Shown in pieces: positions 13,809 to 35,143 of a DNA stretch of 64,000 nt. Under the pieces are notes generated by a model. It had not been told where the DNA came from. It made no database searches and was given only the letters and a program-made list of their open reading frames with translations. The stretch comes from Roseovarius sp. THAF27 (GTDB lineage Bacteria; Pseudomonadota; Alphaproteobacteria; Rhodobacterales; Rhodobacteraceae), in NCBI RefSeq assembly GCF_009363655.1, contig NZ_CP045393.1, positions 2,046,001-2,110,000 on the forward strand, read 5' to 3'. Positions within the stretch are counted from its first letter, which is position 1, and every line of letters starts with the position of its first letter. Both the position numbers and the translations under genes were made by a program.

Positions 13809-15173
13809 TTACATCAACTTGCGGCGTCGTGTCACGCGAATATCAAGGTCGGTGATTTTCTTGCGTAGTGTATTGCGGTTAATGCCAAGAAGATCGGCGC
13901 ATTTGGCCTGATTTCCGCCCGTCGCATCGAGCGCGATCTCGATCAGGGGCATCTCCATCTCCTTGAGGATTCGCCCGTAGAGGCCCGGCGGCGGCAGGGT
14001 GTTGCCGTGCAGGTCGAAGTAGCGGCGCAGGTGGCGCGAGATCGAGGTCGACAGGGTTTCGCCTCCGCCGCCGCCGACCACCGGCGCGGCCTCGGGCTGG
14101 TTGCCCAGCACGGCCTCGACCTCGGAGCGAGTGATTTCGGAGGACCGCGCGGTGAGGCCCAGACGCTGGACCGCGTTTTCGATCTGGCGGACATTTCCGG
14201 GCCAGCTGTAGGCGCGCATCAGTTCCATCGCGTCTTCGGAGACGGTGCGCGGCGGCTGGCCCTCGCGCTCGGCCTTCAGGAGGAAGTGCTGGACCAGGAG
14301 CGGAATGTCGTCGACGCGGGCGCGCAATGACGGCACCTCGACCACGGCGCCCGACAGGCGGTAATAGAGGTCCTCGCGCAGCTTGCCCTCTTCCAGCCGG
14401 TCGGCCAGGCGGCCGAGCGAGGTGGCCATGAAGCGCGGCACGTGATCGCCCGGCGCGTCCATCATCCGCACCACGCGCGCCTGCGCATCGGTGCTGAGGT
14501 CGCCCACCCCGTCCAGCACGATGGTGCCGCCCTTGGCCCGCGCCATGACCCGCGCGGGCCCTTCCAGGTCGGCCAGGTCGGTGGGCGTCACGGTCACGAA
14601 GGGCAGCGTCCGCCGGTCGGAGAAGTCATGGATCGCGCGGGCGATGAGCGTCTTGCCGGTGCCGGATTCTCCGGTGATCAGCACCGGCAGGTCGGTGTTC
14701 ATCAGCCGCGCGACCACGCGGTAGAGCCCCTGCATCGCCGCGGTGCGCCCGACCAGCGGCAACTCGTCGGGGCGGTCCTCGGATTTCGGCTCGGTCGGGG
14801 GACGCTTGGTACGGGCATCAAGTGCCCGCGCGGTGCGTTTCATCAGGTCCGGCAGGTCGAACGGCTTGGGCAGGTAATCGAAGGCCGCGGCCTCTTCGGC
14901 CTGGATGGCAGTCATGATGGTGTTCTGGGCCGAGATCACGATCACCGGCATTCCCGGACGGTCCTGGTTGATCTTGGGCAGCATTTCCAGGCCGTTGCCG
15001 TCGGGCATCATGACATCGGTGATCACCGCGTCGCCCTTGCCCTCACCCACCCACCGCATCAGTGTGGTCAGCGACGAGGTGGCGTGCACCCGGCACCCCG
15101 CCCGTGTCAGGGCCTGCGTCAGAACCGTGCGGATCGTGCGGTCGTCGTCGGCGACCAGTACCGTGCCATCCAT
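13809..15173 (-). CDS. ntrC: Nitrogen regulation response regulator NtrC lacking the GAFTGA loop
   Basis: A 454-residue partner of NtrB. The receiver domain (1-120) has phospho-Asp in [11 protein letters not shown] and KPFDLPD. The AAA+ domain keeps the P-loop GESGTGKT. The segment that normally carries GAFTGA is shortened to [30 protein letters not shown]: no GAFTGA, and Walker B DE is replaced by DG. The C-terminal Fis HTH ([20 protein letters not shown]) is intact. Rhodobacter capsulatus NtrC has the same loss and activates sigma-70 promoters, so that mode is inferred here. It starts right after ntrB (TAG at 15174). Confidence 0.94.
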
Positions 15174-16253
15174 CTAGCTTTCCTCCATGTCCTTGCCGGC
15201 GCGCGGCAGCGATATCCTGAATACTGTGCGTCCCGGCACCGAGCTGACCGAGATCCAGCCGTCGAGGTCCGAGACGATCTTGGCAGCGAGCGCGAGGCCC
15301 AGGCCGGTGCCGTTCTCGCGGCCCGACACGAACGGCTCGAACACGTTGCCGGCGATTTCGGGCGGCAGGCCGGGGCCGTCGTCGATGACCTCAATCTGAA
15401 GCGGCAGCGACTTGCCCGGGCCTCCACTGTCCCGCCGCACCCGCAGGGATTGCTCGTAATAGCTGTGCAGGGTGATGGTGCCGCCCTTGTCGCCCGCGGC
15501 CTGTGCCGCGTTCTTCAACAGGTTCTGGATCACCTGCAACAGCTGGTCGGGATCGGCCACGGCGAGCGGCAGCGAGGGGTCGTAATCCTCGACGATGGTC
15601 ATGTGCGCGGCAAAGCCCACCAGCGCCGAACGGCGGGCGCGGTCCAGGACGTCGTGCAGGTTGACCGCGCGCAGCTTGGGCAGGCTGACATTGCCGAATT
15701 GCTCGACTTGTTCCAGCAGGCCGACAATGCGGCGGCTTTCCGACACGATGAGGTCGGTGAGTTCCAGGTCGTCCTGATCCAGGTTCATCGACAGAAGCTG
15801 CGCCGCGCCGGTGATGCCGGCGAGCGGGTTCTTGATTTCATGCGCCAGCATCTCGGCCATGCCGATGGCGGATTTGGCGGCGGATTTGACCGACTGGCTT
15901 TGGGTTACGCGCCCCGCCAGTTCGCGGGGCGAAATGAGCAGGATCATGTGGTCGTCCCAGCCCGAGACCGGCGCGATCTGCAGGTTGCACTGCATCGGGG
16001 CGCGGTCGCCGGTGCCCACGTCCACGTCATTGACGAAGAGCGGCGCGGATTTCTCGCGGGCGCGTTCCAGCGCTTCTTCGATGGGCGCGTCGACGGCCAG
16101 CTTGTCCCACACCGGCTGGCCGATGATCGAGCGGGCGGATGTCATCAGGAAGCCCTCGGCGGCGGGGTTGATCTGGACGATGCGGTCCTGCCCGTCGAGG
16201 ATCAGCCCCGGCACCGGCAGCGACGTCCAGACCATTTCATCCATCCCGGTCAT
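15174..16253 (-). CDS. ntrB: Nitrogen regulation sensor kinase NtrB
   Basis: A 359-residue cytoplasmic two-component kinase without membrane helices. A PAS domain (about 5-115) precedes the H-box MLAHEIKNPLAGITGAAQLL, the N box NLLKNAAQAA, and G boxes DDGPGLPPEIAG and GTGLGLALAAKI. With PII it controls NtrC phosphorylation in response to nitrogen. The start is ATG 16253, which overlaps the dusB stop (ATGA). A longer open frame to 16535 is dusB read in another frame and is not part of the protein. Confidence 0.94.
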   Translation of the reverse strand: MTGMDEMVWTSLPVPGLILDGQDRIVQINPAAEGFLMTSARSIIGQPVWDKLAVDAPIEEALERAREKSAPLFVNDVDVGTGDRAPMQCNLQIAPVSGWDDHMILLISPRELAGRVTQSQSVKSAAKSAIGMAEMLAHEIKNPLAGITGAAQLLSMNLDQDDLELTDLIVSESRRIVGLLEQVEQFGNVSLPKLRAVNLHDVLDRARRSALVGFAAHMTIVEDYDPSLPLAVADPDQLLQVIQNLLKNAAQAAGDKGGTITLHSYYEQSLRVRRDSGGPGKSLPLQIEVIDDGPGLPPEIAGNVFEPFVSGRENGTGLGLALAAKIVSDLDGWISVSSVPGRTVFRISLPRAGKDMEES

Positions 16254-20006: not shown

Positions 20007-21305
20007 CTAACGCACCAGCAGCGCCGCGAACTCCTCTGGCGGGGCGTCAGCCTCGATCGCCTGCCAGATCGCCTCGGCGCGGCCTTCGCCCAACAGGGCG
20101 GCGGCCTTGGCGCGCACGCGTTTCTGGCGCGCGGCTAGGCCGGGATCAGCGTCGAGGTCGTGAAAGAGATCCTGCACGGACCCGTCCTTGAGCGTCACGC
20201 GCAGGCGGGCCTGCATTTCGGTCAGGCTGTCGTCGCTGTCCACCGTGACCCGTTCGCGCAGCGCGGCGAGGTCGGCGTCACGGCTGAGCGAGTCGGCGAA
20301 GCTTTCCAGCCGCGCGGTGTCATGCCCGGTCAGCGCCATGGCGGTGACCATGCGGTAGCTGAACTTGGACTGAAGCCCGCTTTCGGGCGCGGCGATGTTG
20401 CAGACGCTGAGCCAGCGGGGATGGGTGGAGATTCCGACTGTCTCGACCCGATCGGCCCCGGCATCGAGGTCGCGCAGCGCTTCCAGCGTGGCATGCAGGC
20501 CATGGCAGCAGGCATGGAACTTGTGCTGAACGCTCTCGAACAGCCAGTCCTGCCCCAGCGTGTCGAAGGCCCCACCATGCCCTTCGCCATGATGCGTCTG
20601 GCCGAACCCGTTCTGGCCGTCCATGGCGCCGGGCGCGCTGACGAATCCGCGCGCGGCCAGTTGCGCCGCCTCCACCCCGTTCGAGGCCGCAAGGCCCGCG
20701 TTCATCGGCTTGCCCATGGTGCCGAACTGCGCCTTGATCCCCGAAGCGCGGGTGGTGACGAGGCCGATGGCGTGCTGCATCTGTCCCTCGGTCAGCCCCA
20801 TAAGGCGCCCGCCGGCCAGCGTGGCGCCGAAAGCCCCCGCCGTGGCGGTCTGGTGATAGCCCACCTGGTAATGCGCCCGGCCCAGCCAGACGCCCACGCG
20901 GATCGACGCCTCGACGCCGATCAGCGCGGCCTCCTGCAGCGCGGTTCCGGTGGCGCCCATGGCCTCGCCCACGGCCAGGGCGGCGGGGATCACGGCCACG
21001 GACGGGTGGCCGATATGGGCGAAATGCGTGTCGTCATAATCGAGCGCGTGGGACACCGTGCCGTTGACCAGCGCGGCCATGCGGGCGGGCACACGCAGGT
21101 CGCTGCCGATGAGCCCCGCCTGCGGGCTGCCGCCCTCGTCCTGGGCCTGCGCGCGCAGGATCCCCGCCACGGGCTCGTCGCGCCCGGCGATGCCCACGGC
21201 GGCCCAGTCAAGCAGCGACAGGCGCAGGATTTCCATCGCGTCCTGGGCCTTCACGGGCCCGAGCGCGAAGCCGGCCAGCCGTTCGCCGATCTCACCCCCG
21301 TCCAT
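20007..21305 (-). CDS. MmgE/PrpD family protein
   Basis: A 432-residue member of the 2-methylcitrate dehydratase/cis-aconitate decarboxylase-like family, mostly alpha-helical. Signatures: LDYDDTHFAHIGHPSVAVIPAALAVGEA, GYHQTATAGAFGATLAGGRLMGL, QFGTMGKPMNAGLAASNGVEAAQLA, and KFHACCHGLHATLEAL. The substrate is unknown; there are no propionate genes nearby. Its start lies inside the end of the upstream START-domain gene (14-base overlap), so the two are co-transcribed. Confidence 0.88.
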   Translation of the reverse strand: MDGGEIGERLAGFALGPVKAQDAMEILRLSLLDWAAVGIAGRDEPVAGILRAQAQDEGGSPQAGLIGSDLRVPARMAALVNGTVSHALDYDDTHFAHIGHPSVAVIPAALAVGEAMGATGTALQEAALIGVEASIRVGVWLGRAHYQVGYHQTATAGAFGATLAGGRLMGLTEGQMQHAIGLVTTRASGIKAQFGTMGKPMNAGLAASNGVEAAQLAARGFVSAPGAMDGQNGFGQTHHGEGHGGAFDTLGQDWLFESVQHKFHACCHGLHATLEALRDLDAGADRVETVGISTHPRWLSVCNIAAPESGLQSKFSYRMVTAMALTGHDTARLESFADSLSRDADLAALRERVTVDSDDSLTEMQARLRVTLKDGSVQDLFHDLDADPGLAARQKRVRAKAAALLGEGRAEAIWQAIEADAPPEEFAALLVR

Positions 21306-21747
21306 AGAGCTTCTCCGCCCGCGTCTCGAAGGCGCGCACGATGCGCTTCATCGCCTCGTAGAAGAACAGCTCCGCCGCGCCCTGCAACAGCCTGTTCTTG
21401 AACTTGAAATCGACGTCAAAGCCGACCTCGCACTGGCCGTCGCCAACGTCGCGAAATTCCCAGTTGGAGCGCATGTGGTGGAACGGGCCATCGAGGTATT
21501 CGGTCTCGATCCGCTTCTTTTCCGGCCACAACACGACGCGGCTGCTGAAGCGTTCGCGGAAGACGCGGAAGCTGATCACCAGGTCGGCCTCCATCACCTT
21601 GCTGCCGTCGTCCTGCGGCGTGACGCTGGTCACGCGCGCGGCGGCGGTCCAGGGCAGAAATTCCGGATAGGAGCCGACATCGGCGACAAGGTCGTACATC
21701 TGCTGCGCGGTATAGGGCAGCGTCCGGGTTTCGGCATGAGTAGGCAT
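21292..21747 (-). CDS. RatA/COQ10-like START domain protein
   Basis: A 151-residue SRPBCC-fold protein. The N-terminal TRTLPYTAQQMYDLVADVGSYPEFLPW and the C-terminal VDFKFKNRLLQGAAELFFYEAMKRIVRAFETRA match the COQ10 (ubiquinone-binding) family, which is also annotated as RatA toxin. In alphaproteobacteria a role in ubiquinone handling is the more likely one. No antitoxin-like partner (RatB) is next to it. Confidence 0.88.
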   Translation of the reverse strand: MPTHAETRTLPYTAQQMYDLVADVGSYPEFLPWTAAARVTSVTPQDDGSKVMEADLVISFRVFRERFSSRVVLWPEKKRIETEYLDGPFHHMRSNWEFRDVGDGQCEVGFDVDFKFKNRLLQGAAELFFYEAMKRIVRAFETRAEKLYGRG

Positions 21748-21874
21748 GAAGGCAGATCGGTCCGTTGGGTTGTGGCGGTGCAGGTCTGTGTCGTAAACTG
21801 GTCCGCGAAATGCAAGGGAAACACGGAATGTCGCGCGAAAATGTCATGCGCTACGACACGGAACCGCAGCGTCG

Positions 21875-22054
21875 ATGAACCCCCGCTGGCTGTTCCGCAT
21901 GTCCCGATGGGCCCAGAACCCGCCGAGCGCGGGACGGGTCAAGTTCGTCTTCGCCATCGTCGCGATCTGTCTTCTGATTGCCGGGGCGGAGTATTTCATC
22001 GGCCTGCCCGACTGGATGTCCGTGGACCCCAAGAGCGGGCGGTATCGTCCCTGA
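21875..22054 (+). CDS. Small single-pass membrane protein (59 aa)
   Basis: A 59-residue open frame beginning MNPRWLFRMSRWAQNPPS, with one hydrophobic helix (FVFAIVAICLLIAGAEYFIGL) at about residues 25-45 and a short C-terminal tail ending in RYRP. The basic N-terminus suggests an N-in orientation. It is divergent from the START-domain gene. Small proteins of this layout recur in roseobacters, but I know of no function. The start has only a weak ribosome site. Confidence 0.65.
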   Translation: MNPRWLFRMSRWAQNPPSAGRVKFVFAIVAICLLIAGAEYFIGLPDWMSVDPKSGRYRP

Positions 22055-22100
22055 GCCGACACGGAGAGCCGGGAGCCTTTGCTTGAAGAGTTTGGGGGAT

Positions 22101-22122
22101 GGAAAATTCGTACGAATTTTCC
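22101..22122. repeat. 22-bp perfect palindrome
   Basis: The 11-base arm GGAAAATTCGT is followed directly by its exact reverse complement. It lies in the 210-base gap between the 59-residue membrane protein and the 3' end of the GntR gene, in a locally A+T-rich patch within GC-rich DNA. It could be a dispersed genomic repeat, a protein-binding site or a cruciform-forming terminator element. Confidence 0.6.
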
Positions 22123-22240
22123 TGGCGTCGCGCGGCCTCGGCGCGGATCTCCGGGGCTGGTGTCTGCGCCATGATGGCTCCCCTGCGTGGCAGGTTACAC
22201 GCTCGAGGGAGCGCAGCAGGTCCGTGAGGGCGCAGATCGG

Positions 22241-22266
22241 CCCCGGAGGGCTGGCACGGGGTTTTT
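22241..22266 (+). terminator. Possible rho-independent terminator
   Basis: CCCCG at 22241 and CGGGG ending at 22261 form a 5-bp GC stem with an 11-nt loop, followed by TTTTT. It would end rightward transcription from the 59-residue gene before it enters gntR. The stem is short, so this is tentative. Confidence 0.35.
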
Positions 22267-22948
22267 ACTCTGGAGAAGACGTCTGGATCAGGACCGAGAG
22301 AGGGCCTCCACGCGGGCGTTTCTTGCCGAAGTCGATTTCCGCCTCGATGTGGCGCAGGTGGATGTCGACCAGCTTCTGCGCCGTTGCCTCGTCGCGGTCG
22401 GCGATGCTTTCGACGATCCTGGAATGTTCGTCATCGTCACACAGGCTGGCGCGGTCCGATCCGTAAAGCCCGATGATCAGCGAGGTTCGCATGGTCAGTT
22501 CGGACAGGTAATTTTCCAGCACGCTGTTGCGCCCGATCCGACCCAGCAGCATGTGGAACGCGCGTGAGGCGCGAATCGCCCGGGGCCGGTCGCTGGCGTG
22601 GCGCACGCGGTCCTCTTCCTCCAGATGGGCGCGCAGGGCGGTCAGGTCGGCGGCGTTCGCGTTGCGCACGACGTTGCGGATGATCGTGGCCTCGATCGCC
22701 CGCCTGGCCTGGAACACGTCGCGCGCCTCGGCTTCGGACGGGGTGGCGACGAACGCGCCGCGATTGGGGATCAGATCGACCACCTGATGGGCGGCCAGGG
22801 TCGCCAGCGCACGGCGTACATGCGCGCGATTGCAGGAAAAAAGATCGCTCAGCGCCTGCTCTCCCAGCTTGGTGCCCGCCTGAAGGCGCTGATCCGCGAC
22901 CGCGTCCAAGACATGCTCCACGATCAAGAGTTCTGGATTTTCGGGCAT
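22265..22948 (-). CDS. GntR family transcriptional regulator (FCD subfamily)
   Basis: A 227-residue regulator. A winged helix occupies about residues 8-75 (QRLQAGTKLGEQALSDLFSCNRAHVRRALATLAAHQVV, with LIPNRGAFVA as the wing). The helical FCD ligand domain follows (EAEARDVFQARRAIEATI, RAFHMLLGRIGRNSVLENYLSEL, DDDEHSRIVESIADRDEATAQKLVDIHLRHIE; metal-site Asp/His residues visible). ATG 22948 has GGAG at the right distance; the frame is open to 23011. It is divergent from the allantoin genes, so it is probably their regulator, with a purine-pathway effector. Confidence 0.88.
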   Translation of the reverse strand: MPENPELLIVEHVLDAVADQRLQAGTKLGEQALSDLFSCNRAHVRRALATLAAHQVVDLIPNRGAFVATPSEAEARDVFQARRAIEATIIRNVVRNANAADLTALRAHLEEEDRVRHASDRPRAIRASRAFHMLLGRIGRNSVLENYLSELTMRTSLIIGLYGSDRASLCDDDEHSRIVESIADRDEATAQKLVDIHLRHIEAEIDFGKKRPRGGPLSVLIQTSSPE

Positions 22949-23026
22949 GGGAACTCCGCAATTCAGCCTGTGTCGCAAGGTGCCATTTTCCCCGACAAAA
23001 TTCGACTGCAAAAATTGTCTGTTTTG

Positions 23027-23038
23027 ATTGTTAACAAT
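23027..23038. promoter_or_regulatory. Candidate operator ATTGTTAACAAT for the GntR regulator
   Basis: A perfect 12-bp palindrome sits in the A+T-rich gap between gntR and the racemase gene, 38 bases before the racemase ATG. FCD-type GntR proteins commonly bind TTGT-ACAA palindromes. It lies between a TTGTCT (23015-23020) and TATGTT (23040-23045) that could serve as a weak rightward -35/-10 pair (19-bp spacer), where binding would repress transcription. Confidence 0.5.
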
Positions 23039-23075
23039 TTATGTTATCCAAAATGCAAATCAAGTGGAGGAGCAC

Positions 23076-23774
23076 ATGAAAATCGCCGTCATCAATCCGA
23101 ACGCCACGGTCAGCATGACAGACAAGATCGCAGCGACGGCGCGGTCGGTCTGCGCACCGGGCGTGGAGATAGAGGCACGCACCGGCATCGGCGCGCCGGT
23201 CAGCATCGAGGGCCATTACGACGAGGCGATGGCGATGCCAAAGCTTCTGGATCAGGTCCGCGAAGCCGAAGCCGGACAGGCCGACGCCATCGTCGTGGCC
23301 TGTTTCGACGACCCGGGCCTGGGCGCCTGCCGCGAGATCGCGACCGGCCCGGTGGTGGGGCTGTGCGAGGCGGCGGTGAAGGCCGCCAGCATGATCGCCA
23401 CGTCGTTCAGCGTGATCACCACCCTGCCCCGCTCTGCCCCGATCATCGAGGAGCTGGTGCGACGCTACGGGCTGGATCACCAGTGCCGCAAGGTGCGCGC
23501 GGCGGCGATTCCGGTGCTGGCGCTGGAAGAGCCCGGATCGAATGCCCGCATTCAGGTGCGCGACGAGATCCTGCGCGCGATCGAGGAGGATCGCTGCGAG
23601 GCCGTGGTGCTGGGCTGTGCCGGCATGTCCGATCTGGTGGAATGGCTGTCGGAGGAGACAGGCATTCCGGTGATCGACGGTGTCTCGGTGGCGACGAAAT
23701 TCGCCGAGGCGCTGGTCGGTGCGGGGCTGAAGACGAGCAAGATCGGAGCATACGCCGCACCAAACCCGAAATAA
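23076..23774 (+). CDS. Allantoin/hydantoin racemase (Asp/Glu racemase superfamily)
   Basis: A 232-residue enzyme. The two catalytic cysteines of the family are in IVVACFDDPGLGA (about 75) and AVVLGCAGMSDL (about 180). The N-terminal INPNATVSMTD is typical of HyuE/HpxA. Next to allantoinase, its likely role is to interconvert (R)- and (S)-allantoin so that both enantiomers can be used; hydantoin racemase activity is the alternative. ATG 23076 follows a GGAGG site; an upstream in-frame ATG at 23028 lacks one. First gene of the allantoin operon. Confidence 0.87.
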   Translation: MKIAVINPNATVSMTDKIAATARSVCAPGVEIEARTGIGAPVSIEGHYDEAMAMPKLLDQVREAEAGQADAIVVACFDDPGLGACREIATGPVVGLCEAAVKAASMIATSFSVITTLPRSAPIIEELVRRYGLDHQCRKVRAAAIPVLALEEPGSNARIQVRDEILRAIEEDRCEAVVLGCAGMSDLVEWLSEETGIPVIDGVSVATKFAEALVGAGLKTSKIGAYAAPNPK

Positions 23775-23795
23775 CAGACAACTGGGAGGAGACAG

Positions 23796-25172
23796 ATGAC
23801 AATTTCGGATACAAACAAGGGCGTCGGGTCAAAGGAAGACCACGTGCCCCATGCAATCGACAAGAAGGGCCTGGGCGAGGAATCGCTGGCCCCGCAGGAG
23901 ACCCGGATCATGGACCCCTGGTCGTACCTGTTCGCCTGGCTGGGCGGCTGCGTGTCGATCGGCACCTTTACCATCGGGTCGGGCCTTGTGGGCACGCTGA
24001 ACCTGCTTCAGGTGTTCATCGCCATCGCCATCGGCTGCACCGTCATCGGCTTTGCGCTGATGATCAACGGGGCGGCGGGCCACAAGTACGGCATTCCGAT
24101 GATGGTGCAGGTGCGCTCTGCTTTCGGGTTCACCGGCTCGCGCATTCCCGCGCTGGTGCGGTCGGTGCCGGCCATCGTCTGGTTCGGCTTTCAAAGCTGG
24201 ATCGGGGCCGGCGCGCTGAACCTGGTGAGCGAGACTCTGTTCGGCTATTCCAACATCGTGGTGTTCTTCATCGGCTTCCAGTTCCTGCAGATCTTCCTGT
24301 CGGTCCTCGGATTCCACGGCATCAAGTGGCTGGAGAACATCGGTTCGGTCTTCATCATCGGGTCGCTGGTCTACATGTTCGTGTCGGTGATCGGGAAATA
24401 CGGCGACGAGATCAGCACGAACCTGGTCAATGTCGAAGGCACCTGGGGCGCGCCGTTCTGGGGGGCGACGATGCTTTTCCTCGGGATCTACGCGACGATG
24501 ATGCTGAACGTGTCGGACTATTCTCGCGAATTGCGCCGGTCCGTCGGACGCACGCGGCAGGTGGTGATCTACGCCAACTCGATCCTGCCGGCGACGCTGT
24601 TCATGGGGCTGATCGGGCTGATGGTGTCGGGTGCGACCGGCGAGGTCGATCCGATCCGCGTGTTCTCGAACGCGGTGGACAACAAGCTGTTGCTGGTCAT
24701 CACCCTGCTGTTCATCGCCTTTGCACAGGTGACGACCAACATTCTCAACAACGTGGTGCCGCCGGCCTATGCGCTGATGGATGTCTTCAAGCTGAACTAC
24801 AAGACCTCGGCGGTGCTGGTCGGGCTGCTGGCCTTCGCCACCTTCCCGTGGGAACTGGTCAAGGACGAGTCCGCCGCCGGTCTGAACCTGTTCATCCAGA
24901 CCTACAGCGCCTTCCTCGGCCCGATCTTCGCGATCCTGGTGGTCGATTACTACGTGCTGCGCCGGCAGGTGCTGGACCTCGACAAGCTTTATGACGAGAC
25001 CGGCGACTACAAGGGATTCAACCCGGCGGCGCTGATCGCCATGGTGGTGGGCATCGCCGCGGCGCTGACCTTTTCGTCGGTGTCGTGGTATGCAAGCCTG
25101 ATCCCGGCGGGGCTGACCTATTACCTGCTGATGCGGCACCTGCCCGCCGCGCGCCGGTTCCTCGACGGCTGA
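23796..25172 (+). CDS. NCS1 family purine/allantoin permease (first copy)
   Basis: A 458-residue cation symporter with about 12 membrane helices. The N-terminal ETRIMDPWSYLFAWLGGCVSIGTFTIGSGLVG and the central RSVPAIVWFGFQSWIGAGALN carry NCS1 signature positions (the WFG and QSWIGA segments line the substrate site). Probable substrates are allantoin or another purine breakdown product, inferred from the neighbours. It follows the racemase by 21 bases and is itself followed by a strong hairpin. Confidence 0.88.
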   Translation: MTISDTNKGVGSKEDHVPHAIDKKGLGEESLAPQETRIMDPWSYLFAWLGGCVSIGTFTIGSGLVGTLNLLQVFIAIAIGCTVIGFALMINGAAGHKYGIPMMVQVRSAFGFTGSRIPALVRSVPAIVWFGFQSWIGAGALNLVSETLFGYSNIVVFFIGFQFLQIFLSVLGFHGIKWLENIGSVFIIGSLVYMFVSVIGKYGDEISTNLVNVEGTWGAPFWGATMLFLGIYATMMLNVSDYSRELRRSVGRTRQVVIYANSILPATLFMGLIGLMVSGATGEVDPIRVFSNAVDNKLLLVITLLFIAFAQVTTNILNNVVPPAYALMDVFKLNYKTSAVLVGLLAFATFPWELVKDESAAGLNLFIQTYSAFLGPIFAILVVDYYVLRRQVLDLDKLYDETGDYKGFNPAALIAMVVGIAAALTFSSVSWYASLIPAGLTYYLLMRHLPAARRFLDG

Positions 25173-25187
25173 GGCACGCATATCGCC

Positions 25188-25216
25188 CGGAAGGGGCCGC
25201 GCGCCGGCCCCTTCCG
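25188..25216 (+). terminator. Intercistronic hairpin between permease and puuE
   Basis: A perfect 12-bp stem (CGGAAGGGGCCG / CGGCCCCTTCCG) with a 5-nt loop, 15 bases after the permease stop and 50 bases before puuE. There is no T-run, so a partial terminator or mRNA-stabilising element is more likely than a full stop. Confidence 0.55.
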
Positions 25217-25266
25217 CCCGTCCGCCGCTGACGCGTGCCCGGACAGATTCCAACAAAGGAGCAGAC

Positions 25267-26517
25267 ATGACTCGCTATCCCCGTGACATGCGCGGCTACG
25301 GCGCGACGCCGCCGGATCCGCGCTGGCCCGATGGCGCGAAGATCGCCGTGCAATTCGTGCTGAACTATGAAGAGGGCGGCGAGAATTGCGTCCTGCATGG
25401 CGACGAGGCCTCCGAGGCGTTCCTGTCGGACATTCCCGGTGCGGTGCCCTGGCCGGGCCAGCGTCACTGGAACATGGAGTCGATCTATGAATACGGCGCG
25501 CGGGCCGGGTTCTGGCGGTTGCACGATCTGTTCACCGGGGCGGGTATTCCGCTGACCATCTATGGCGTCGCCACCGCCCTGGCGCGCAGCCCCGAACAGG
25601 TGGCGGCGATGACCGACGCCGGCTGGGAGATTGCCAGCCACGGCCTGAAATGGATCGACCACAAGGATATGCCCGAACACGAAGAGCGCGCGGCCATCGC
25701 CGAAGCGGTGCGCCTGCATACCGAGGTGGTCGGCGAACGGCCGCGCGGCTGGTACACGGGCCGGTGCAGCGCCAACACCGTGCGCCTTGTCGCCGAGGAA
25801 GGCGGGTTCGACTATATCTCGGATTGCTATGACGACGATCTGCCCCACTGGCGCGAGTTCGCCCGGCGCGATCAACTGATGATCCCCTACTCGCTGGAAA
25901 CCAACGACATGCGCTTTGCCGCCACGCCCGGCTGGGTGACGGGCGGCGATTTCGAGACCTACCTGAAAGACACGTTCGACACGCTGTATGCCGAGGGCGC
26001 GGCGGGCGCGCCGAAGATGATGACGGTGGGGCTGCATTGCCGGCTGATCGGCCGCCCCGGCAAGATCGCCGGGTTGCGCCGCTTCATCGAGCATGTGCAG
26101 CGTCACGAGGCCGTCTGGTGCCCACGCCGCAGCGACATCGCGCGGCACTGGGCCGCCACCCACCCCCACCATCGCCAGGAACGCCCCAGCGCAATGAAAG
26201 AGGCACGGTTCACCGAGGTGTTCGGACCGGCGCTTGGCGCGGGCAAGTGGCTGGCCCCGCGGGCCTGGGCGCTGGAACTGGGGCCGGGCCATGACAGCGC
26301 CATCGGGCTGCACAATGCCTTTTGCCGCGCCCTGCGCAGCGCCTCTGACACGGAGCGCGCGGCGCTGGCGCAGGAGATGGCCGGGGCGGCGCAGTCCGCC
26401 ACGGTCGGCGCGGGCGGCGATGATCCCGCGGCGGTGACAGACGCGCGCGCCGTCGACCGGGCCTGCACGGCGTATGAAGCCGCGCTTCTGCCGCGCCTGC
26501 GAGAGTTGCTGCCATGA
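25267..26517 (+). CDS. puuE: Allantoinase PuuE with a shortened UraD-like C-terminal tail
   Basis: 416 residues. Residues about 1-300 are the polysaccharide-deacetylase-like allantoinase PuuE (RYPRDMRGYGATPPDPRWPDGAKIAVQFVLNYEEGGE; WEIASHGLKWIDH; GWYTGRCSANTVRLV; LHCRLIGRPGKI), which opens (S)-allantoin to allantoate. Residues about 310-416 begin and end like OHCU decarboxylase UraD (FTEVFGPALGAGKWLAPRAW; LLPRLRELLP), a fusion partner known in related bacteria. This part is about 107 residues instead of about 165, and the conserved HPDLA catalytic segment is not there. The decarboxylase half is therefore probably inactive. ATGA overlap with allA. Confidence 0.88.
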   Translation: MTRYPRDMRGYGATPPDPRWPDGAKIAVQFVLNYEEGGENCVLHGDEASEAFLSDIPGAVPWPGQRHWNMESIYEYGARAGFWRLHDLFTGAGIPLTIYGVATALARSPEQVAAMTDAGWEIASHGLKWIDHKDMPEHEERAAIAEAVRLHTEVVGERPRGWYTGRCSANTVRLVAEEGGFDYISDCYDDDLPHWREFARRDQLMIPYSLETNDMRFAATPGWVTGGDFETYLKDTFDTLYAEGAAGAPKMMTVGLHCRLIGRPGKIAGLRRFIEHVQRHEAVWCPRRSDIARHWAATHPHHRQERPSAMKEARFTEVFGPALGAGKWLAPRAWALELGPGHDSAIGLHNAFCRALRSASDTERAALAQEMAGAAQSATVGAGGDDPAAVTDARAVDRACTAYEAALLPRLRELLP

Positions 26518-27010
26518 GCGGCGCGCGCATTCTGGCCGCGCCCTTGACGGCAGAGGCCTTTGCCCCGTTCGGCGACGTGATCGAGGCACGGGGCGCGCCC
26601 GATATCATGATAAACCAGGGGCGCTGTGGCCGGTTCCACGACCGCGCGCGGCTTGATTTCGGGGACGAGGGTCGCGCCGGGCTGAGCCTGTTCGATGCCG
26701 AGGCCGAGACCCTGCCCGTCAGCCTCGGGATGATGGAGCGTCACCCGCTGGGCAGCCAGGCCTTCGTGCCGATGGATCCCGTGGCGATGCTGATCTGTGT
26801 GGCCCCGGACGCGTCGGGCCGCCCCGGCGAGCCGCGCGCCTTTCTCAGCCAGCCCGGACAGGCGGTGAACCTGCTGCGCGGCGTCTGGCACGGCGTCCTG
26901 AACCCGATCGGCGGGCCGGGCCGGTTCCTGGTGATCGACCGGATCGGGGCGGGCAACAATCTCGAGGAACACTGGTTCGAGCACCCTTTCACAGTCCAGG
27001 GAGACCTGTC

Positions 27011-27014
<4 letters not shown>
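26514..27014 (+). CDS. allA: Ureidoglycolate lyase
   Basis: A 166-residue cupin-like enzyme that splits (S)-ureidoglycolate to glyoxylate and urea. Diagnostic segments: LTAEAFAPFGDVIEA, INQGRCGRFHDRA, MMERHPLGSQAFVPM, GVWHGVLNPIGGPGRFLVIDRIG. Full length for AllA. It overlaps puuE and the next gene by 4 bases each, so the three enzymes are translationally coupled. Confidence 0.93.
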
Positions 27015-27850
<836 letters not shown>

Positions 27851-27859
27851 GCGGCGCAT

Positions 27860-27889
27860 CCCGGCGGCGGTAGTCGACACGCCGCCGGG
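27860..27889 (+). terminator. Intercistronic hairpin after the aminohydrolase gene
   Basis: A perfect 10-bp GC stem (CCCGGCGGCG / CGCCGCCGGG) with a 10-nt loop, 10 bases after the stop and 46 bases before the second permease. No T-run follows. Confidence 0.55.
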
Positions 27890-27934
27890 CCAATTCAAAA
27901 AACAATAATCAAGTCGACGGACAGAGAGGACACA

Positions 27935-29380
27935 ATGACTGCAATCGAAACTAACCACGGCCATGCCGGGTCCACGCTGGACCCGGAGGGCAACACGCTG
28001 CAGCCGGTCAAGGCCAGCGAAAAGACTTGGGGATGGTTCGCCATCTTCAACGTCTGGGCCAACGACGTTCAGTCGCTGTTCGGCTATTCGCTGGTGGCGT
28101 CGCTGTTCATATCCTACGGAGTCAGCGGCTGGACCGCCTTTGCGGCGCTGATCGCCGCGGGCCTCTTTACCATGTGGATGGTCAACCTGTCCGGCGCGCC
28201 GGGCGAGAAATACGGCATCCCCTACCCGGTTCTGGCCCGCGCCAGCCTTGGCACCAGCGGCGCGCGCCTGCCCGCGGTTTTGCGGGCGACGGTCGCGGTG
28301 TTCTGGTACGGTGTGCAGGTCTACTTTGCCTCCACGGCAGTTGCGCTGCTGATCCGGTCCCTGACCGGGATCGAGGCCGGGGGCGCCGAGGTTCTTGGCC
28401 TGACCGGGATCGACTGGCTGTCGTTCTTCATCGTCTGGGCCTTTCATATCGTGATTTTCTGGCGCGGCATGAACTGGGTCGAGACCTTCCTGAATATCGC
28501 CGGTCCGCTTGTCTACCTGGTGATGATCGGCCTGCTGATCGTGCTGTGGCAAAAGGCCGACGGCCAGCTGCTCGAGGCGACGGCCACGATCTTTGCCAAC
28601 CCGGATGCGACTTTCCTCACCGAGTTCAACGGCTTCGTCGCGATCGTCGGCACGATGGTGGCCTATTTCGCCGCCGTGATGATCAACTTCAGCGATTTCT
28701 CGCGTTATTCCCGCGACAAGCGGTCGATGGTGATGGGCAACCTGGTGGGGCTGCCGTTCAACATGATCCTGTTCTCGGCGCTGGCCCTGCTGACCACCGC
28801 GGGCGCGGCTGTCGTCTTTGGCGAGGAAATCACCAACCCCAGCCTTATCGTCGAGCGCACCGACAGCGTGCTGCTGGGGGTCATCGCCGCGCTGACCTTC
28901 TTTGCGGCCACGGTCGGGATCAACCTTGTCGCCAATTTCATCCCGGCGGTGAACGGCATCGCCAACCTCGCGCCGGAAAAGATCAGCTTTCGCAAGGCGG
29001 GGCTGATCACCTCGTTCCTGGCGCTGATCATCGGCGGGTTCTGGACCAGCTTCATCAGCGAGGTCGGCATCAGCGGCTTCGTCAACACGCTGGGGGCGAC
29101 GCTGGCCCCGGTCTTCGGGATCATGATCGTGGACTACTACCTGCATCGCGGGCAAAGCCTGGATTTGGATGACCTCTACGACATGTCCGGGGGGCGCTAT
29201 CACTACAGCAACGGCTGGAACCTGACCGCGGTCAAGGTGTTCGCCATCGCCGCGATCTTCTCGGTCGCGACGGTCTGGGTGCCGTGGTTCGGGTTTCTGT
29301 CCGGGTACAACTGGGTGATCGGAGCCTGCCTTGGCGGCGCGTTGTACTACGCGATGGCCAGGACGTCCGCCACGACCTGA
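27935..29380 (+). CDS. NCS1 family purine/allantoin permease (second copy)
   Basis: A 481-residue symporter with about 12 helices. It starts with ETNHGHAGSTLDPEGNTLQPVKASEKTWG-like soluble residues, then WGWFAIFNVWANDVQSLFGYS. It has the NCS1 site segments GVSGWTAFAALIAAG and LRATVAVFWYGVQVYFAS. It is clearly divergent from the first copy, so it is not a recent duplication and may carry a different purine derivative. Last gene of the cluster. Confidence 0.88.
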   Translation: MTAIETNHGHAGSTLDPEGNTLQPVKASEKTWGWFAIFNVWANDVQSLFGYSLVASLFISYGVSGWTAFAALIAAGLFTMWMVNLSGAPGEKYGIPYPVLARASLGTSGARLPAVLRATVAVFWYGVQVYFASTAVALLIRSLTGIEAGGAEVLGLTGIDWLSFFIVWAFHIVIFWRGMNWVETFLNIAGPLVYLVMIGLLIVLWQKADGQLLEATATIFANPDATFLTEFNGFVAIVGTMVAYFAAVMINFSDFSRYSRDKRSMVMGNLVGLPFNMILFSALALLTTAGAAVVFGEEITNPSLIVERTDSVLLGVIAALTFFAATVGINLVANFIPAVNGIANLAPEKISFRKAGLITSFLALIIGGFWTSFISEVGISGFVNTLGATLAPVFGIMIVDYYLHRGQSLDLDDLYDMSGGRYHYSNGWNLTAVKVFAIAAIFSVATVWVPWFGFLSGYNWVIGACLGGALYYAMARTSATT

Positions 29381-29396
29381 CCCTTGCACGCATGAC

Positions 29397-29424
29397 GGCC
29401 GGCGGCAGGATCATGCCGCCGGCC
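29397..29424 (+). terminator. Terminator-like hairpin at the end of the allantoin cluster
   Basis: An 11-bp perfect stem (GGCCGGCGGCA / TGCCGCCGGCC) with a 6-nt loop, 16 bases after the permease stop. A weak CCCTTTT follows at about 29443. Confidence 0.6.
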
Positions 29425-29547
29425 TGTCAGACAACGTGCAGCCCTTTTGGCCCGGTCCATCCCCGGACAAGGCGCACATGCGCCGCACGAGAGCGGCCGC
29501 TTCCCCGAAAGGCGCCTTCACATTCCAAACTCCCCGGCGGCGGCCTG

Positions 29548-29682
29548 ATGAGCAAGATCGTTCCGGTCGAGGATGCCGCCACCGTCGCCACCTGTTTCGA
29601 ACTCATGCGGCAACTCCGTCCGCATCTTCTGCTGACGGCTGTTGGTCCTGGTCATGCGCCGCATCGGCAATCCTTGCCATAG
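29548..29682 (+). pseudogene. N-terminal fragment of a GNAT acetyltransferase
   Basis: The frame beginning MSKIVPVEDAATVATCFELM continues with RQLRPHL, the usual start of a GNAT N-acetyltransferase. It then leaves the family within about 30 residues and stops after about 44. No remaining part of the fold is visible downstream in any frame. It appears to be the stump left by a deletion. The rest of the 29425-29816 gap holds nothing else I can support. Confidence 0.5.
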
Positions 29683-29781
29683 AGCGAGCCACGGTGAGAG
29701 ATTTGCGCAAAGCGGGGCCCTCAGGACTCCCCCTGGCGGGTCGAAAATCGAAAGCCGAAGTCCCGACCGGGCACGGCCAAA

Positions 29782-29806
29782 CGTCATAACAGAGAGCTTT
29801 ATGACG
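29782..29806. promoter_or_regulatory. Inverted repeat before the FhuF-like gene
   Basis: CGTCATA and TATGACG are 7-bp arms around an 11-nt centre, ending 10 bases before the ATG at 29817. This could be an operator or a leader hairpin close to the ribosome site (GAGG). I cannot assign a regulator. Confidence 0.35.
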
Positions 29807-29816
29807 AGGTAACGCA

Positions 29817-30713
29817 ATGTGCGATGGCAGCGACCGCGGGTTCGGCACCCATCCAAACCCGCTCGAATTGGCTGGGAAAGTCGGTGGCCAGCCCGACGGG
29901 GAGCACGCCGGGCGCGACGTTTCACGCATCCCGGGCAACGTCCTGCCGTGCAGCGAGTTCTTTGCCGACGACGCAGCCCTTCTGAAGGCGTTCGAGTATC
30001 AGCGCAGCTTTTGCCTCGACGCGGACACCAAAGCCTCCGCGACCTTCATGTTGTCCGACTATATCGCGGTATTGATGAAAGTGCTGATCCCGCTCTTCAT
30101 GCATCACCGGATCGTGCCAAGCCTCGCCCCCCGGAATGTTGGGCTGAGCTTTCACCAGGCCACCGACCAGCCGACCGATCCGTCCCAACCACAGCCAAGG
30201 ACGATGCGTGTCGTCTTTTTGTCTTCCGATCTCGCGGCAGCGCCGGACCTGTCGGCCATTCCCACCCGGGAGGGTGCCACGAAGCCGGACCTGGCCGAAG
30301 CACTCAGAACGGAAACCGAACGCCATTTCGCGCCACTGATCTCTCGTCTGAGCGCCCTTTCCGGGCTGGCGCCTGCCGCATTCTGGCGCCTCGTGGCGGA
30401 TGGTATCGCGGCGGAATTTCTGACGGTCGGCAAAAACACAGGCGAGGAAGCGCCTGCCAAGGCCCTGGCGTTGAGGATCGTGAAAACGGAAGGCTCTCCG
30501 CTGAACAATGCACAGCTGCATTTCTTCGACCTCGAGCTGGCCGTCGCGGGCGAGCCGTCCAACCGCGTTTGCCTGCGCGCACGTGGAGGATGCTGCCGGT
30601 ACTATACGGTCGAGGCGGGCAGGTTCTGTACCACCTGCGTTCTGAAGACCCCTGCCCCACGCAACCGCGATCTTCGGATCGCTCTTCGCCGGCGCTTCGG
30701 ATTGAGCGATTAG
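29817..30713 (+). CDS. FhuF-like siderophore-iron reductase
   Basis: A 298-residue protein with a helical IucA/IucC-FhuF-type core and a C-terminal 2Fe-2S motif CC-x10-C-x2-C (RGGCCRYYTVEAGRFCTTC, about residues 260-278), the hallmark of FhuF. It would reduce ferric siderophore in the cytoplasm to free iron. ATG 29817 has GAGG upstream. It is followed by a broken TonB receptor gene, so its original uptake system appears lost. This frame itself looks intact. Confidence 0.8.
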   Translation: MCDGSDRGFGTHPNPLELAGKVGGQPDGEHAGRDVSRIPGNVLPCSEFFADDAALLKAFEYQRSFCLDADTKASATFMLSDYIAVLMKVLIPLFMHHRIVPSLAPRNVGLSFHQATDQPTDPSQPQPRTMRVVFLSSDLAAAPDLSAIPTREGATKPDLAEALRTETERHFAPLISRLSALSGLAPAAFWRLVADGIAAEFLTVGKNTGEEAPAKALALRIVKTEGSPLNNAQLHFFDLELAVAGEPSNRVCLRARGGCCRYYTVEAGRFCTTCVLKTPAPRNRDLRIALRRRFGLSD

Positions 30714-30722
30714 GCGCGGAAA

Positions 30723-30757
30723 GGACCATTGCGAATATTTTTTTACGAGAATGGTCC
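30723..30757. promoter_or_regulatory. Inverted repeat between the FhuF-like gene and the receptor remnant
   Basis: GGACCATT and AATGGTCC (8-bp arms) enclose a 19-nt A+T-rich centre with an eight-T run, 9 bases after the FhuF-like stop. It is either a terminator-like structure or a binding site before the receptor gene. Confidence 0.4.
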
Positions 30758-30856
30758 CAAGCGCAATGGCCCAAACGTCAGATAAGGGAACGGATCACAG
30801 CCGCCGCCACGCATCCGCGACAACCCAAGACAGATCGCGATGACGCGGAGGGCAGA

Positions 30857-33294
30857 ATGACACAGAATACCGAGGCTTGGCGCAACGCAGCACGCGTGCG
30901 AAAAACGTCCGTGAAGCCGACAATGGCCGCAGCAATACTGGCAAGCATTTGTCTGGCGACAGACGCTCCGGCCCAAAGCTTTCCCGCAACGGCGGACGCA
31001 CAGAAGATATCGGTCGCAGCGGGAAGCCTGACACAGGGTCTCAATGACCTGGCGCGGCAGACCGGCCTGCAGATCCTCTTCGATCCCGCGCTTGCCTCCC
31101 GAACATCGACGCCCTGGACTTGCTGCTTTCGGGCACGGGACTGGAGCCGCGCTTTGCCGGCGCCAACCAGGTCGTGCTGGAACGGAAAGCCGACGAGAGT
31201 GCCGCGACAATGCAGGATGGTGCCGTCAACCTGGGCACGATCACCATCTATGGCAACAGGAGCGCGACCACGCTCGGAAGCACCGATGCAAGTGTCGGCA
31301 TCGTCGGCTCGGACCAGATCCGCGACGGTCAGATCCGGTCTTTCCGGGACTCCTTCCGTCGACTGGGCAACGTCATCGATGGCGACTGGACGGATAACGG
31401 GTTCATCATCCGCGGCGTAAACTCCGAGGGATTGGTGCCGGGCGGAGCACCTCTGGCCTCGCTCTATGTCGATGGTGTCCAGCAGACGAGCCAAGGCACA
31501 CGGCGCGGCGCCCGCTCCCTGTGGGATGTCGAACAGGTCGAAGTCTACCGTGGCCCCCAGTCAACGCTTTCGGGCCGGGCTGCAATGGCCGGGGCACTCT
31601 ATATCAAGACAAAGGACCCTGTCTTCGAGAAGGAAGGAGAGATCTCCGGAACCATCGGTTCGAACGGCCTTCGCGGCACCGCATTCATGCTGAACACGCC
31701 GCTCAAGAACAACCAGGTGGCGCTTCGCTTCTCCGGGGTCTTCGAAAGAAGCGAGAACGATATCGAGTATCCGACGTTCTCGTCCTTCACCCATCTGGAC
31801 GATTTCACCACCGACACGAACTACCAGATTCGGGCCAAACTGCTGTTTGAACCGAAGGCTTCCCCATCCACGCGCGCCCTGCTGAGCTACTCGTTCTCGC
31901 ACGACGATCCCTACGTCCGCGATATCGGAGGGCCGGGCCTTGGCTTCGACTTTGATGACGAGCGCGGGGACTTCACGATCCCCGCCTATGTCGAACATCG
32001 CCCGACCGACGTGCACAATCTCGGCCTTGAGGTCACCCACGATCTGACAAACGCGCTGCGTTTCACCTCGATGACGGCCTTCAGCTACTCGGACACCCAA
32101 CGGCAATCGCCGAATTACCGGACACCGGGTGAGATCAACACCTATCACGGGCACTATAGAAACCTGTTGGCGTCCCAGGAGTTTCGCCTCAATTACGAAG
32201 ACGAAAGGCTGACCTGGGTCGCGGGGCTCTACGCCGCCTACGAGCACGAGGACAACTTTTACGACCGGACCATCTATGACTACCGGAACCAGGTCCAACG
32301 CAACGAAAGCTCCAGCGAAAACTACGCGATTTTCGGTGAGGCGACCTATGAGGTGATCCCGACGGTGAATGTCACACTTGGCGGACGCCTCGACTACACC
32401 CGTCAGGATATCCGCCAATACCTTGAAAGGACCGAACCCCTGGGGGGAGTCACCACGGTTCGCACCGCGTCGGACAACCGGCGGAGTTACGAGTCGGCCC
32501 GGCAGCTCTTTGGCGCAGCGGGACAGGCAATCGAATCCGACCCGGACCTCCGCGCCTTCGAGGCGAAGCCAGCCAGGCCGGCAGGCCCTAAGATTGCGGT
32601 CATCGCCGTGGCACTTGCCATTGGCATCGGCAGCTTTTTCTGGGCCGACGGCCCCATGCGGCTGCGGGCCGATCTGATCGCCGGGATTGACGAGATGCCG
32701 CGGGTAACGCTCGGGGATGGCTCGGTGGTGCAACTGAACGCGGGGTCCGCGATCGCGGTCGATCTCGACCCGGGACAGCGCAGCGTTCATCTGATGCGCG
32801 GCCAGGCCTATTTCGAGGTCGCGCCCGATCGCGATCGACCTTTCTCCGTAACCGCTGGCACGACCACTGTCGTCGCTCTCGGCACCGCATTCGATGTTCG
32901 GCTCGGCCAAGCCGATATCGCGGTCACGGTGACCGAGCATAGCGTTCTCCTTGACCTAGGCGAAGACAGGACAACGCAACTGAACGAGGGGCAACAGGGG
33001 CGATACCAGATCGCCGGCGCACAGCTTACCGTGGAAGACTCCGATCATCACCGCGCCCTGGCATGGCGAGACGGCAAGCTGCTTCTCGACGACACCCCGA
33101 TCGACGAAATCATCACTGAAATCGACAAACGAATGTCCGGGAGAATTTTCGTGACAGGGGCCTCCCTCGACAAAAGACGACTGAGCGGGACCATCGACAT
33201 CACCGATCCGGTTGCTGCTCTGTCCTTTATCGAGCAGGCGCTTGATGCCAGGACACTTCAAATCGGACCGATGATCATCATGAGGCTTGACTAG
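30857..33294 (+). pseudogene. Frameshifted TonB-dependent receptor joined in frame to a FecR C-terminal part
   Basis: Reading from ATG 30857, a signal peptide (ends TDAPAQS) and an STN domain (ISVAAGSLTQGLNDLARQTG, LQILFDPALASR) are followed by a frame change near 31095-31110. The second frame resumes the STN end (LDLLLSGTGLEPRFAGANQV) and goes through the plug (DVEQVEVYRGPQSTLSGRAA) into about half of the beta-barrel. Near 32480-32500 the receptor stops at TASDNRRSYE, and a FecR protein continues without its N-terminal domain: one membrane helix (IAVIAVALAIGIGSFFWADG) and a periplasmic part (VTLGDGSVVQLNAGSAIAVD), ending in a second STN-like region. No sigma factor gene is present. Probably non-functional. 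Confidence 0.8.
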
Positions 33295-33363
33295 GCCCAG
33301 GACCCTGCCCTGACACGCGCGCCGGAGGCGCCACAGCGTCACGTGATGATATATTCGGGAAAA

Positions 33364-33440
<77 letters not shown>

Positions 33441-33449
33441 CTGGTCGAC

Positions 33450-33478
33450 GCTATAACTCGTTCGGTCCAGTGCCGCAA
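33450..33478 (-). promoter_or_regulatory. Predicted promoter of tRNA-Arg
   Basis: Reading leftward, TTGCGG (33478-33473) and TATAGC (33455-33450) are separated by exactly 17 bp, and the tRNA begins 10 bases after the -10 box. Confidence 0.55.
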
Positions 33479-33523
33479 CGGCGAAAACGCCCGCGATGTG
33501 GTGCAGGCCGCGGGAGGTGTCGT

Positions 33524-33547
33524 GGCCCGGGCGGACGCGCCCGGGCC
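33524..33547 (-). terminator. Hairpin after the small lipoprotein gene
   Basis: A perfect 10-bp stem (GGCCCGGGCG / CGCCCGGGCC, loop GACG), 7 bases beyond the stop at 33555. It likely closes the suf transcript before tRNA-Arg. There is no T-run. Confidence 0.5.
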
Positions 33548-33554
33548 GCACGGG

Positions 33555-33854
33555 TCAGGGACGCGCGCCGCCCTGGGTGCCGGCGCCCTGGTTGCCCCCG
33601 CCGCTCGACTGAGGCTGGCCCGTGGGGTTGCGCGGGGTTTGCGGATAGTCGTCCGGCAGGCATTCCTCGCCGCCGCCGGCAGTGCCTTGCTGGCCGCCGC
33701 CCGGACAGCCGCCGCCGCCCCCGTCGCTGTCATACTTGGTCATGATCGGGTCGGGCGTGATCGCGGCCCGGCTCGGGGTCGTGGGGGGCTCGGTGCAGGC
33801 CGACAGGCTGGCGCCCATCAGGGCGACGAAGGCGGTTGTGTGAAGTTTGAACAT
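33555..33854 (-). CDS. Small glycine-rich lipoprotein, hypothetical
   Basis: 99 residues. A lipoprotein signal (MFKLHTTAFVALMGASLSAC, Cys about 20) is followed by a low-complexity tail rich in Gly, Pro and Gln (DGGGGGCPGGGQQGTAGGG). An AAGGAG ribosome site precedes the ATG. It is downstream of sufS on the same strand, 68 bases away. No recognised domain. Confidence 0.7.
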   Translation of the reverse strand: MFKLHTTAFVALMGASLSACTEPPTTPSRAAITPDPIMTKYDSDGGGGGCPGGGQQGTAGGGEECLPDDYPQTPRNPTGQPQSSGGGNQGAGTQGGARP

Positions 33855-33922
33855 GATGCTCTCCTTGGTGGTCCGGCCATGGGTCGGCCCGCCAGGAGGA
33901 TCCGTTCAAACTTTTCCGGCCG

Positions 33923-35143
<1,221 letters not shown>

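Follow-up and report, generated by a model that had tools for sequence, protein, structure and literature searches.

Organisation of the receptor-FecR locus

The window analysed here is a 64,000-nucleotide stretch of the Roseovarius sp. THAF27 genome. An open frame of 724 codons in the ORF list (31120-33294, forward strand) joins part of a TonB-dependent receptor to part of a FecR regulator, in agreement with an earlier note that had described a frame of this length following an upstream frame change. The features of the locus are listed below, where L003 is the locus of Alloyangia mangrovi, the best named relative, P0004 is an intact 804-aa receptor and P0123 is the A. mangrovi FecR.

29817..30713, + strand: fhuF-like ferric reductase gene, complete frame of 298 aa (Pfam FhuF and FhuF_C, both above cut-off)
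30857..31114, + strand: 5' part of the receptor gene, comprising the start, signal peptide and first part of the STN domain (translation; aligns with the N-terminus of P0004)
31108..31116, + strand: approximate site of a 34-nt deletion, relative to L003, in the STN domain (nucleotide alignment with L003; protein alignment with P0004 and P0005)
31279..31596, + strand: receptor plug domain (Pfam PF07715, E 7.2e-14, P0001 residues 62-167)
31597..32466, + strand: receptor beta-barrel, first half, up to the counterpart of residue 548 of 804 (Pfam PF00593; P0004 alignment)
32461..32475, + strand: deletion junction from receptor to fecR (window sequence; last receptor codon ends at 32466; edges of the L003 blastn blocks at 32467 and 32476)
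32467..33294, + strand: 3' part of fecR from about residue 40, comprising the remaining cytoplasmic domain, transmembrane, periplasmic and C-terminal parts (Pfam PF04773, E 5.1e-18; P0123 similarity)
32590-32652, + strand: fecR transmembrane segment (by eye)
32683-32946, + strand: periplasmic FecR domain (Pfam PF04773)
33364..33440, - strand: tRNA-Arg(CCG), flanking the remnant on its right (ARAGORN)

A profile search of both halves, which had been proposed as a check, placed a Plug domain, a TonB receptor barrel (residues 271-446) and a FecR domain (residues 530-617) in the translation P0001 (31096-33291), all above the Pfam curated cut-offs, with the barrel match covering profile positions 19-207 of 436. 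The plug, half barrel and FecR parts of the proposed chimera were therefore upheld, but the STN domain that had been counted with them is broken by the 34-nt deletion, and Pfam reported no STN domain in either receptor piece. The receptor start (ATG at 30857) and signal peptide lie in a different frame from the plug, and that frame ends at a stop at 31420. Measured against a functional TonB-dependent receptor, the locus has the plug domain and lacks both a signal peptide that shares the frame of plug and barrel and a complete barrel, the match to P0004 ending at residue 548 of 804. Measured against a sigma regulator, it has the periplasmic FecR domain and lacks a complete N-terminal anti-sigma domain, the first approximately 39 residues being absent relative to P0123. 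The adjacent FecI-type sigma factor of a cell-surface signalling operon is likewise missing.

Comparison with intact receptors and operons

In a protein search with the fused frame, the top match was the window's own protein, P0003, followed by P0004, which is present in three contigs. P0004 is collinear with the window to T548, the codon for which ends at 32466; past that point it has the rest of a normal barrel where the window becomes FecR. Across the plug and half barrel, from the STN lesion to the junction, the two differ at eight of 452 residues, a comparison that omits five non-comparable residues at the start of the stretch and two at its end; the N-terminal piece of 86 residues differs at two positions. 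A FecI protein named Roseovarius sp. (P0244), whose longest contig equals that of P0004 in length (4314698 bases), suggests that the genome encoding P0004 may also keep fecI; the operon order around P0004 is one that we infer. A search of the genus with P0004 (84 genomes, own included, E up to 1e-60) gave a match in eight other genomes, the best covering residues 126-802 at 43% identity, with shorter pieces at up to 53%.

The A. mangrovi locus carries, on one strand, fhuF, an 804-aa receptor, a binding protein, permeases, an ATPase, a FecI-type sigma factor and a 314-aa FecR, of which the binding protein, permease and ATPase names are our reading of the translations, and FecI and FecR were also named by protein searches. 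The window aligns to it by blastn in two collinear blocks, L003 6808-9360 (75.7%) and 14774-15590 (75.1%), which sit eight bases apart in the window, the first ending at 32467 and the second restarting at 32476, so that approximately 5.4 kb of L003 is unmatched. What the window retains is fhuF, which precedes the receptor as it does in L003 (pieces 58.6% and 67.9% identical), the receptor as far as residue 548 of 804 (the half being 87% identical) and fecR from about residue 40. As expected of a deletion pseudogene, relatives hold both genes and the segment between them, and the window is collinear on either side of one breakpoint. A second lesion, well separated from the first, was found by nucleotide alignment near 31110, where the window is 34 nt shorter than L003 inside the STN domain and the frame shifts; a gene hit twice, at places well apart, is more in keeping with decay than with a new function. 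Values of dN/dS from a codon-level comparison with L003 were 0.089 for the receptor half, 0.313 for fhuF and 0.268 for fecR, but these mostly reflect the long period that preceded the break and are no indicator of present selection on the window. The fhuF copy of A. mangrovi (L003 7411-7566) shifts frame shortly before the C-terminal cysteine motif, where the window's copy is whole, and looks either broken or affected by a sequencing error.

The comparison with relatives carrying intact gene sets, also suggested in the earlier note, drew on 79 relative loci, the whole locus set from the search, some of them short or ending early. Of these, 27, A. mangrovi included, carry receptor, binding protein, permease, fecI and fecR in this order on one strand, with receptor and fecR kept separate by several genes. 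The remaining 52 comprise 19 with fecR upstream of the receptor, two with a partial downstream order and 31 with no fecR detected beside the receptor. The 19 upstream cases prompted consideration of a permuted operon, with the fusion as a tandem-duplication junction, which was dropped on the grounds that fecR in L003 lies downstream in the same operon.

No other receptor-FecR fusion was found: none of the 79 loci had both matches in one open frame, only P0003 carried both domains among the best 120 of 657 proteins, only the window's own match spanned both halves in a search of 100 genomes (own included), and none appeared in 385 genomes (own included; E up to 1e-40, at most two candidates scored per genome). 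An ancestral fusion from which the separate receptor and fecR genes elsewhere were derived is a negligible prospect; no support for it was found, and it is opposed by the 27 loci with several genes between the pair, the 19 with fecR upstream and the lack, among the 79, of any locus joining them in one frame.

Junction and FecR part

The in-frame passage from receptor to FecR that had been described is real, but lies at about 32466 rather than at 32480-32500, some 15-35 bases earlier. Downstream of it the protein resembles A. mangrovi FecR from about residue 40 of 314, with 69% identity to P0123 over 99% of the query (32473-33291). Sigma regulators of the PupR type consist of an anti-sigma domain (PupR residues 1-82), a single transmembrane helix and a periplasmic domain (PMC7186176). 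The view that the N-terminal cytoplasmic domain of FecR is absent from the window was too strong: approximately 39 residues are lost and approximately 40 remain before the transmembrane segment. Among the matches listed in a search with the FecR part, none was an intact FecR more than 69% identical to that of the window, and the exact parental fecR may be hidden in the cluster represented by P0003 (six member sequences) or be absent.

By eye, the two parental ends are alike over at most approximately 4 nt (AC.G) at the junction, a likeness such as is seen for illegitimate deletion, judged on L003 rather than on the exact parental DNA. The same observation bears on an assembly artefact, in which the segment would be present in the strain and lost in assembly, since ends sharing just approximately 4 nt leave no evident repeat on which to collapse. 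Such an artefact is very unlikely, given also that the contig is large (the window lies at 2.05-2.11 Mb of C1, in a genome of six contigs) and that the independent 34-nt lesion, together with the lack of any match to the missing receptor half on any contig, fits biological loss.

Search for the lost genes in the same genome

The missing receptor half had no match in the genome at E 0.001, in a search run without a positive control. The binding protein had a 29% homologue as its sole match, and A. mangrovi FecI gave three matches, 23-27% identical and all distant from the window. A FecR family search, positive in four of 14 control genomes, matched the window copy alone, giving no second FecR in the genome, and no other FecR-type signalling system was detected there. 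Elsewhere in the genome, the first 15 kb of contig C2 are 100% identical to a plasmid of Roseovarius sp. THAF8. Six plug domains were found in total. One of these plug domains (G000:C1:2979394-2979732; locus L171, ORF 1471-1959) stands in an open frame of just 172 codons, with no barrel-like frame of at least 90 codons listed after it and with a gene that we read as LysR-like overlapping on the opposite strand; it is a probable second receptor remnant.

Surroundings of the remnant

In a close relative (G035, locus L163), the counterpart of window 20504-22135 (86.5% across the main 1551 bases) directly abuts that of 33363-34159, with the same tRNA-Arg, and synteny extends on both sides. Approximately 11 kb beside tRNA-Arg(CCG) (window 22135-33363), containing what we read as purine breakdown genes and a permease, and the iron remnant, is therefore absent from this place in the relative. 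In a further genome (G012, locus L164) the tRNA and sufS side match the window and the stretch to the left of the tRNA does not. Genes at window positions of about 25267-29380, read as purine breakdown and permease genes, occur in the same order in three genomes (G036, G041 and G024), and the 14-kb stretches taken from these gave no match to iron genes beside them. An attachment-site repeat at the tRNA was considered and rejected, as a 19-base tRNA-end pattern (up to three mismatches) matched at the tRNA itself alone.

A probable deletion remnant of a siderophore uptake operon

Almost certainly, the fused frame is a pseudogene, what deletions of approximately 5.4 kb and 34 nt have left of a siderophore uptake operon with FecI/FecR cell-surface signalling. 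The ancestral order, as seen in relatives, would have been fhuF, receptor, binding protein, permeases, ATPase, fecI and fecR on one strand. A single deletion, its size of approximately 5.4 kb coming from the L003 comparison, would then have taken out the second half of the barrel and all that followed up to about codon 39 of fecR; that the two genes were thereby united in frame was probably chance. The second deletion, of 34 nt in the STN domain, cuts the signal peptide off from the rest, as is plain in the alignment. Any product would lack a signal peptide, a closable barrel, adjacent transport genes and a FecI partner, and would presumably serve neither transport nor signalling.

Deletion decay had been the leading reading in the earlier note, and it is supported by the operon of relatives, the near-identical intact receptor elsewhere and the independent frameshifting lesion. 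The in-frame meeting of two interacting partners, which that note had regarded as unusual, carries little weight: since receptor and fecR belong to one same-strand operon, one deletion suffices to join them, and a random junction is in frame one time in three. Against decay alone, no stop or frameshift was found in the fused frame 3' of the STN lesion, a state not kept for long by decay; the probable reason that the frame remains open is that decay set in recently, with few changes accumulated so far.

The same open frame, with its transmembrane segment and periplasmic FecR domain kept over 724 codons, is what would speak for a working protein. Translation from an internal start could, for instance, give an inner-membrane protein that combines a FecR periplasmic domain with a misplaced receptor half. 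The likelihood of a working protein is slight indeed, and the reading was rejected: the signal peptide lies in the other frame, the barrel is cut at half, the FecI homologues in the genome are distant only, and no second fusion was found in any of the loci, listed proteins and genomes searched. In addition, no Shine-Dalgarno-like sequence is obvious by eye before the TTG at 31120. Fainter still is the prospect that a protein made from an internal start acts as a stable inner-membrane sink or decoy, its FecR periplasmic domain binding the STN domain of another receptor.

The deletion remnant can also be set beside known systems. Siderophore uptake operons with FecI/FecR signalling in A. mangrovi and rhizobial relatives have the same order and orientation of fhuF and receptor, but compared with the A. 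mangrovi type the window is without the second half of the receptor, the binding protein, permeases, ATPase, fecI and the start of fecR. PMC7186176 describes, for FecA-FecR-FecI of Escherichia coli and PupB-PupR-PupI of Pseudomonas capeferrum, the same kinds of domain as in the window, namely a receptor with an N-terminal signalling domain and a regulator with an anti-sigma domain, a transmembrane helix and a periplasmic domain. In those systems the partners are separate proteins, whereas in the window both are truncated and fused to one another. A natural fusion of two cell-surface signalling partners is offered by IutY of Pseudomonas putida (PMC9249621), which is described as working and joins sigma to anti-sigma factor, in contrast to the receptor and sigma-regulator parts, deletion junction and frameshift of the window. 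The fused frame is most readily taken as ordinary gene decay, and as a deletion scar rather than a designed chimera.

The importance of this finding is small beyond annotation, where the frame would be labelled a TonB receptor carrying a FecR domain and might plant a false architecture in domain databases. The locus also illustrates, on a small scale, the loss of a signalling uptake system, in which half of the receptor, the transporter and the regulator were lost apparently in one step and the reductase gene was left.
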